Shown here one piece after another: positions 19,001 to 22,000 of a stretch of DNA of 64,000 nt. Numbering within the stretch: the stretch's first letter is position 1; each line of letters starts with the position of its first letter. The position numbers and the translations under genes were made by a program. Source of the DNA: Amaurobius ferox. Taxonomy: Eukaryota > Arthropoda > Arachnida > Araneae > Amaurobiidae. The notes below the pieces were generated by a model. It had not been told where the DNA came from, did no database searches, and saw nothing but the letters and a program-made list of their open reading frames with translations. Location: positions 140,758,415 to 140,822,414 of the forward strand of contig OX578148.1 of the NCBI GenBank assembly GCA_951213105.1. Reading direction: 5' to 3'.

Positions 19001-22000
19001 CATGTAACAATATTGAGGAATAAAAATACACTACAAATATAACTGACATCATAAAAAATTGATACTGTTACAGAAGCATGAAAGTCAGTTTCAAAAGATA
19101 TTATAATTATGGTTAATAAATAAAATATAAATAGGTATGCATTTAGTTTATTAGTTATTTAATATTATTTATAAGCAAAAAACACCATTCTAGCTTTAAC
19201 ATTTTGATAGTGTTTAACTTTTTATTGAATCAGCAAGTACATCTTGTCCAATTGTGTTACGTCAGTTACACAATTTTAAAATTAAATTATAAAGGTATAT
19301 TCATAGCAAGAAATTTTTTTTAATTTGCTGTATAATAGCCATAGGTAATAAATATTTTAAAGCATAAAGTTTTACTTTGTCATTTTTAGTAAATGTTTTC
19401 TGGTATAAAGAATTGATTGTTATGTGAGTTATAGTGGAATTGACCTGTACTTAACACTAGAACTGAGAGATGGGTCAATTTGACTCAAATCTAATTTCAT
19501 TTCCGTTTTTCTCAAAAATTTACAAGCGGAACCAAATACAAGTTCTTGACATTTCATAATATTAGGCGAATAACGGCCTATAAAAATATCAGTCGTTAGA
19601 TATTTATTAGTTTCATGTTTTTAACAATTATACCTAAAACTGCGGAATGGGTCATTCTGACCCAAAGACCATCACGAATACGGAAAGTAGGGCACAACAT
19701 TTTTTGGAAGTGAAAATGTGCGTTTCTTCCTCTTTTTCGGAAAAGTGGTGAACAAAAGACCACCTTGAAAGTCGAGGCAGTCTTTCTGATAAGATAAGGC
19801 ATTGCATGGGGATGACATTTTTCTTTGTAGAGATAGAACATAAGGCTGCAACGCTAGTGAACAAGTGCAGATAAAATTTGCTGTCTGAACAACATGCTGC
19901 TAAAATGTAGTCGTACACTTACTATTAGCGAAGCTTTAGAAGACTTGCAACAATTGTCGGAAAATGAGTCCGAACACTGCAGTGGTGAAGAGTTTGAAGG
20001 CACATATTCATCATCACTAAAAACAAAGAGTATACATCTTCAGATAATAATGATCATGTATCTGATTTTTGTGAATTTCCTGTGCCATGTGGTAGTAATG
20101 AAAATGTTTATCCTGACCCTGATTGCAATTTCGAAAGAAACAAAGCTTCAGTAAGCAAAAACAAATAAAATCATCAGACTCCAAGTCGGATCTTATGAAA
20201 CTAGAATTTTTGTTGCAAATGACTGAATGCAGCAGTCAGGAAGCAATATTCGTGAAAAAATTGCTAAACACAAAGTTTGTTAGGAAGCTTGCAGCCCAAC
20301 CCCTTACGTGAAGCAAAGCATTGAGGATGAATATACATCAAGTTCGAGGAGGTTACTTATAGATGAACCAATGCTTCATCATATAAAAAATTGTGCAGAG
20401 GAAAAAGCTCACTTGCAACTTGGGGAAAAATGAGTGGTCTACAACTTTAGGGGATATAGCTTTTATAGCAATTTTGTATGCTCGAGGTATATACTGTGCA
20501 AGAAGTCTCGAACTTGATATCCTGTGGTCCATAGTTTGGGGTCTACCTTTCTTTCGCGATACTATGACAGGAGACAGATTCAGAGAAATTATGAGATTCT
20601 TACAATTTGACCTAAGAGCAACAAGATCTGAATGCCTTCAAACAGATAATTTTGGCCTTATTTCTGAAGTTTGGGAGAAATTTATTATAAATTCGATTGC
20701 CAGCTACAAACCAGGACTTCATATAAATATTGATGAGCAACTGTTTCCTACAAAAGCTAGATGTCGTTTTACACAATATATGCTAAATAAACCAGAAAAT
20801 TTGGAATAAAATTCTGGCACGCTACTGATGTTGACACTAAATACATACTAAATGACTTTCCATATCTAGGTAAAGATGAGCAGTGTCCTGAAAATCTAAC
20901 TCTTTCCGAATACATCATTTGGCATCTAGTGAAACCTGTTGAAAACAAAGGAAGAAATGTCACAACCGACAACTTCTTCACAACACTGAAGCTGGGCCAA
21001 CGGCCGTACCGTGCTGAAAACACCGGTTCTCGTTAGATCACCGAAGTCAAGCAGCATCGGGCGCGGTTAGTACTTGGTGGGTGACCACCTCGGAACACCG
21101 CGTGCTGTTGGCCATCTCGGGTGCGGTATCCCCGTGGTTTGCGCGCTAGATTTGCACGCTGCCACAAATGCCGCCGTGTTCATGCGGAGTACGATCACGT
21201 TAAACATGTGGGTCCGTAAGTCCTTCCGAGAGGTTGGTGGTAGGGGAAGGAGGGTACGGTCCCTGTGGATGCCTCCCCCACTGGGTTCCGGTCTAAATTG
21301 GGTAGCACTTCCCGGCCGTCCATACAGTTACCTTACACCTTTCTGGTAGGTCGGACGGTCTGGGTCTCAACAACAACAACACTGAAGCTATTTGCACGCT
21401 GCCACAACTGCCACTGTGTTCATGCAGAGTACGATCATGTTAAACATTTGGGTCCGTAAGTCCTTCCGAGAGGTTGGTAGTAGGGGAAGGAGGGTATGGT
21501 CCCTGTGAATTCCTCCCCCACTGGGTTCCGGTCTAAATTGGGTGGCACTTCCCGGTCGTCCAAACGGTTACCTTACACCTTTCTGATAGATCGGACGGTC
21601 TGGGTCTCAACAACAACACTGAAGCTAGGGCACTGTAGCCCAGTGGTTAGCGCACGAGAATTGCACTTGGTAGGTCCGGGTTCAATGCCTGCCGCTGCCA
21701 AAACTTCCGCCGTGTTTACGCAGAGTATGTTCTCATTAAACATGTGAGTCTGTAAGCCCTTCTGAGAGGTTGGTGGTAGGGGAAGGAGGGTACAGTTCAT
21801 GTGGATGCCTCCCCCACTGGGTTCCGGTCTAAATTGGGTGGCTCTTCCCGACCGTCCAAACAATTACCATACACCTTTCTGGTAGGTAGGACGGTCTGGG
21901 TCTCAACAACAACAACACTGAAGCTTTAACAGATGCTAAAAGAAAAGAATACAAGCTTGGTAGGGACAGTAAAGTGAATTCAAAGGGAAATTCCTAAAAT

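Follow-up and report, generated by a model that had tools for sequence, protein, structure and literature searches.

How did three SINE units of different kinds come to stand in a row inside one piggyBac-type transposase, with the same short sequence before, between and after them? The question is raised by a stretch of 64,000 nucleotides of the Amaurobius ferox genome (contig OX578148.1, positions 140,758,415 to 140,822,414), hereafter the window, in which the initial annotation had described this arrangement and an internal deletion common to the first two units. These descriptions hold. The 14-mer ACAACACTGAAGCT occurs as an exact match four times in the window (at 20980, 21376, 21613 and 21912), around and between the three units; 0.40 copies with two or fewer mismatches are expected by chance, and none of 100 shuffled sequences contains four. 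Matches to the transposase profile PF13843 flank the train on both sides, with profile positions 42-221 lying to its left in two frames and positions 241-349 to its right. Compared with unit 3, units 1 and 2 lack a segment of about 27 nt that contains the B box. We looked in the train for a constant period, which together with alike units would be a sign of tandem amplification, and did not find it, the target spacings being 396, 237 and 299.

The 5' ends of the three units all differ. Unit 1 begins with a complete 5S rRNA-derived head, followed by a tRNA-like stretch without a B box and then by the shared body; we take this 5S-headed SINE to be SINE3-like. Unit 2 starts inside the tRNA-like stretch of a 5S-type SINE and has the same B-box deletion as unit 1, and unit 3 has a tRNA-type head that carries the B-box-like GGTTCAATGCC and is a weak Rfam match only (RF00005, 20.1 bits against a gathering threshold of 29); a scan of the window with ARAGORN yielded no tRNA. 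Two hallmarks of target-primed reverse transcription are present, in that every unit is flanked by a target-site duplication (TSD) and that 5' truncation is accompanied by a constant 3' end, both in unit 2 and in three truncated units of another train (L039, described below).

Table 1. Positions of the train, of its host element and of related units, counted from the first nucleotide of the window
Feature	Position	Strand	Remark
Host, left part of degenerate piggyBac-type transposase	20387..20979	+	PF13843, two frames
Target copy T1, ACAACACTGAAGCT	20980..20993	+	adjoins natural left flank TTCTTC
Unit 1, full-length 5S-rRNA-headed SINE	20994..21375	+	lowest divergence of the three
5S rRNA-like head of unit 1	20996..21113	+	RF00001, 102.4 bits, model 1-120
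Target copy T2	21376..21389	+	
Unit 2, 5'-truncated SINE of older 5S-type subfamily	21390..21612	+	B-box deletion
Target copy T3	21613..21626	+	
Unit 3, tRNA-headed SINE with B-box-like motif	21627..21911	+	highest divergence of the three
Target copy T4	21912..21925	+	adjoins natural right flank
Host, right part of the same transposase	21978..22550	+	PF13843
Single tRNA-headed SINE of the unit-3 family	35822..36105	-	TSD ACCTACAGTACACTTG
Hairpin-only unit	13757..13817	-	
Hairpin-only unit	15240..15296	-	
Second train, sh2 then sh1 hairpin-only units	58218..58379	+	three copies of ACTCAGTCTAGC
Hairpin-only units at L004, L009, L035, L036, L038, L039 and L047			

Other copies of the host element show what this site looks like elsewhere. 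A query taken from the right of the train gave 41 rows for the best 40 of 117 candidates scored; besides the window's own copy, which matches at 100%, these comprise 39 other copies that do not exceed 90% and a single partial piece. This train is missing from all six sister copies examined: the site is empty in L052, L053, L054 and L055, in L056 a single target copy follows a different upstream sequence, and in L051 the site is occupied, within identical 14-nt boundaries, by a different truncated SINE whose two target copies differ by one substitution. When the two flanks were joined into a single query (115 candidates), 40 of the 40 scored matches cross the site, in a ranking that favours empty sites; this second list includes 23 of the 39 other copies mentioned above and lacks 16, two of which are L051 and L056. 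A 22-mer that spans the junction between target and unit 2 has a single occurrence in the 3.56-Gb assembly. The unique junction and the train-free sister copies argue against both tandem amplification and segmental duplication, and the segmental duplication of a ready-made array, which the initial annotation had named as a way in which its reading could fail, was thus searched for and not found.

The Amaurobius ferox genome has similar SINE stacks at many places. We searched it with the body of unit 1 (best 40 of 481 candidates scored, the window's own copy not among them); all matches but a short one lie on the minus strand, and the 30 best, L001-L030, were fetched and read. Six of these 30 5S-type copies (L004, L006, L008, L009, L010 and L012) belong to trains with an intervening target, a frequency with a 95% confidence interval of 8-39%. 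Five others (L003, L005, L013, L015 and L019) were rejected as same-site trains, being nested or having a neighbour without the same intervening target. By eye, L015 consists of a 5S-SINE and a truncated unit within one outer target pair and with no target between them, as a template switch or a nested insertion might leave. In a density sample of 20 stretches of 10 kb, set at round coordinates on four contigs, plus the window, we counted 38 units, of which the window contributes 10 and the 200 kb of stretches 28. Trains occur in two of the 20 arbitrarily placed stretches, which hold 10 of the 28 units. One such stretch, L039, has seven recognisable units at one site and nine target copies, two of these parted by a short remnant only, and L036 is a train of three hairpin units. 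The initial annotation had proposed counting cases of n units with n+1 target copies. We read ten trains from end to end (L004, L006, L008, L009, L010, L012, L036, L039 and the two in the window), and nine of them fit this rule, the exception being L039. Over the whole genome, on one strand and with each place taken once, the pattern of a tail, 8-30 nt and a head yielded 169 junctions of the tail-target-5S-head type against 3963 5S heads, and 996 of the tail-target-tRNA-head type against 21395 tRNA heads, with reversed-pattern controls giving 0. These genome counts are of tail-target-head junctions, outer target copies having been matched only in the fully read trains. Some of the tRNA-type places counted lie in arrays of 245-bp period that contain the tRNA-SINE head (C1:81432-85485, 5655849-5656352 and 6225881-6226384).

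We consider it highly probable that the trains arise by sequential LINE-driven insertion in which each landing regenerates the target. The train at 20980-21925 would then reflect three separate events of target-primed reverse transcription at one genomic site. A partner LINE would nick the bottom strand at approximately YAC|ACA, the (CAA)n tail of the SINE RNA would pair with the primer end, and a top-strand cut about 14 nt downstream would give rise to the 14-nt duplication. The duplication would place a complete target on either side of the new unit and leave the site unconsumed, open to a further SINE RNA that shares the 3' end. The stacks most likely recur because the target survives every landing for the next SINE. 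This model builds on the n+1 targets, the mixed units, the narrow range of TSD length, the recurrence across the genome and the independent insertion at this site in a further piggyBac copy. The repeated use of a LINE nick site that is regenerated, as the initial annotation had suggested, is likewise supported by the count of targets in nine of ten trains, by the boundaries and mutations of the target copies (see below) and by L051. The partner LINE would be expected to end in TGGGTCTTCAACA-type sequence; none was recognised by eye within 130 nt upstream of 94 loose tail-like matches outside annotated units (~360 kb).

The left flanks of 38 insertions show a preference for YAC|ACA, and certain R1-clade LINEs (Waldo and Mino) target ACAY or AC repeats. 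Among the matches listed, CA begins 46 of the 62 distinct target texts that follow the CAA run (63 places), and the target text after the run is 13-15 letters long in 44 of 62; at sh2-to-5S junctions the gap is 20-22 nt in 38 of 58. A nearly fixed stagger would explain the repeated right boundaries. The target preference amounts to 8.45 bits (standard error 1.26, bias 0.24) for 37 sites, one of the 38, whose left flank is another unit, being left out of the estimate. Taken with unit density, this motif predicts that ~4% of new units fall on an old target (2-se range 0.7-24%), as against the observed six of 30 (8-39%); something beyond passive reuse may or may not be needed. At L013 two SINEs lie, by eye, in two nearby natural copies of ACAACCGTATCTCG, a hint of sequence-driven targeting.

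Some target copies are a record of separate events through their boundaries or mutations. At L039 an A stands in each of the four leftmost target copies and a G in each of the five to their right, a split that, from the sequence, would most simply be a mutation that arose between insertions. The left copies of L009 and L010 over-run the older unit by one or two letters, very short over-runs that point to left insertion, and at 58218-58379 AT follows the first and third copies of ACTCAGTCTAGC and is lacking after the middle copy, which is 2 nt short and points to right insertion. In the train at 20980-21925, the 226-nt body of unit 1 is 100% identical to L001 and L002, unit 2 has 12 differences in 226 positions from its nearest consensus, and unit 3 has 87.7% identity to another tRNA-headed copy. 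This gradient suggests that the younger units lie to the left, and unit 3 would have been followed by unit 2 and then by unit 1, each inserting into the left copy, an order resting on a divergence that is itself partly subfamily age; ageing by raw identity was dropped where subfamilies differ. All four targets here are identical despite the ~5-12% divergence of units 2 and 3, which mildly favours events close in time.

Alternatively, one processive event might have built the whole train, with the reverse transcriptase copying a SINE RNA and then the 14-nt top-strand overhang, by which the primer end is regenerated, and taking up the next SINE RNA. Such an event agrees with the train at 20980-21925, where the right boundaries coincide, all four targets are identical and the units are mixed and truncated. 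We nevertheless think it improbable, because the units differ in divergence, the shared A and G of the L039 targets are sorted left and right, separate cuts are suggested by the over-running left copies of L009 and L010 and by the shortened middle target at 58218-58379, and L051 represents an independent use of the site. Homology-driven exchange (the other possibility raised in the initial annotation) or tandem amplification starting from one inserted SINE has its counterparts elsewhere in this genome, both in the arrays of tRNA heads with a 245-bp period and in a tandem array with a constant period of 299 bp (C2:42850810-42853584). At the present locus the units differ in kind and length, which disfavours exchange; the spacings are uneven, three kinds of unit have the same local target between them and the junction of unit 2 occurs nowhere else in the genome, so that we regard this origin as very unlikely. 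Repeats can also be mis-joined, and the locus was judged from the assembly, but an assembly artefact is hardly credible given contigs of 144-182 Mb, junctions spread over many contigs with reversed-pattern controls of 0, and a target text that varies from place to place among the junctions listed. The C2 array contains ten junctions exactly 299 bp apart and looks like a single SINE amplified in tandem, a process unlike that of the trains.

If the trains are products of sequential insertion, either target copy could receive the next unit. In this small sample, the young 5S unit stands at the left end of four trains (L006, L008, L009 and L010), at the right end of L004 and in third place among the four units of L012. 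In our cleanest test, which uses sh2 units as neighbours, both copies are used about equally, without clear preference: sh2 lies to the right of 115 of 12543 young-type 3' ends and to the left of 58 of 8025 young-type heads [odds ratio 1.27, Fisher P = 0.16], two sets of young units that may be different copies. By eye, the sh2 search motifs are intact in five of five heads and five of six tails. A 2-3-fold bias towards the left copy, roughly estimated from other counts (396/12543 vs 169/3963, eye-corrected, 38 units), was abandoned in favour of this test. The initial annotation had supposed that the CAA tail of an inserted unit aids the next insertion by extending the site. The near-equal use of upstream and downstream copies lends no support to such help, and the independent SINE in L051 indicates that insertions are drawn to the site even in the absence of a CAA tail. 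The interpretation in the initial annotation is thus supported for the repeated use of the nick site, is not borne out for the tail, and is disfavoured here for the exchange.

The closest precedent that we found is the R1 element of Drosophila, which forms tandem head-to-tail arrays at its 28S site with a 14-bp TSD between copies (PMC2718515). Its ancestral type has a 14-bp TSD, and the authors infer that the arrays grew as further elements entered the TSD 5' of an existing R1 (PMC2718515). The likeness lies in the head-to-tail units parted by target copies of about 14 bp. However, R1 is an autonomous LINE at a single rDNA site, whereas the trains are built from several SINE families and lie at dispersed sites, and R1 inserts at the 5' TSD, whereas here both TSD copies appear to be used about equally and single loci show both directions. 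Head-to-tail SINE multimers are described in mouse B2, jerboa Dip (up to eight units) and bat Ves (PMC8466645, PMC10702118), with tandem SINEs making up 40% of B2, 49% of Dip and 11.5% of Ves (PMC8466645). These multimers, as excerpted, resemble the trains in their tandem units and mixed families; the excerpts describe no target copies between the units, whereas here such copies point to the mechanism. The authors did not know how B2 dimers arise and for that reason left them out of their analysis (PMC8466645). Precise parallel SINE insertions, which are also independent insertions at an identical position, amount to 0.01-0.04% in primates and 0.18-0.29% in toothed whales (PMC10531181), but these are rates between lineages, a different measure from the percent-level reuse within one genome seen here. 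Among the papers listed, in a scope that leaves most subscription journals outside, none describes SINE trains in which target copies separate the units, and the excerpts of PMC9191728 and PMC13295347 give no precedent for such copies.

For this genome, trains with a locus-specific target between their units offer an explanation of how SINEs come to stand head to tail, and each stack becomes a testable, ordered record of insertions. They also call for caution, since, wherever sites are reused, a SINE insertion cannot safely be treated as a marker free of homoplasy. A broader proposition, on which we are evenly divided, is that the genome may contain many intrinsically hot landing sites at which one LINE machinery can insert without ever using them up, each becoming a dated, multi-family SINE stack in which target-copy mutations and cut registers would give the order of retrotransposition.

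Besides the longer SINEs we observed discrete units of ~56-62 nt, which consist of the 3' hairpin and tail only and are flanked by target duplications. They fall into two families, the stem arms of which show compensatory differences (CCGTCC/GGACGG and CCACAC/GTGTGG), and four single-sequence folds of the 3' hairpins gave z values from 0.08 to -2.28. These units are possibly minimal retroposons, or else LINE ends truncated at the hairpin.
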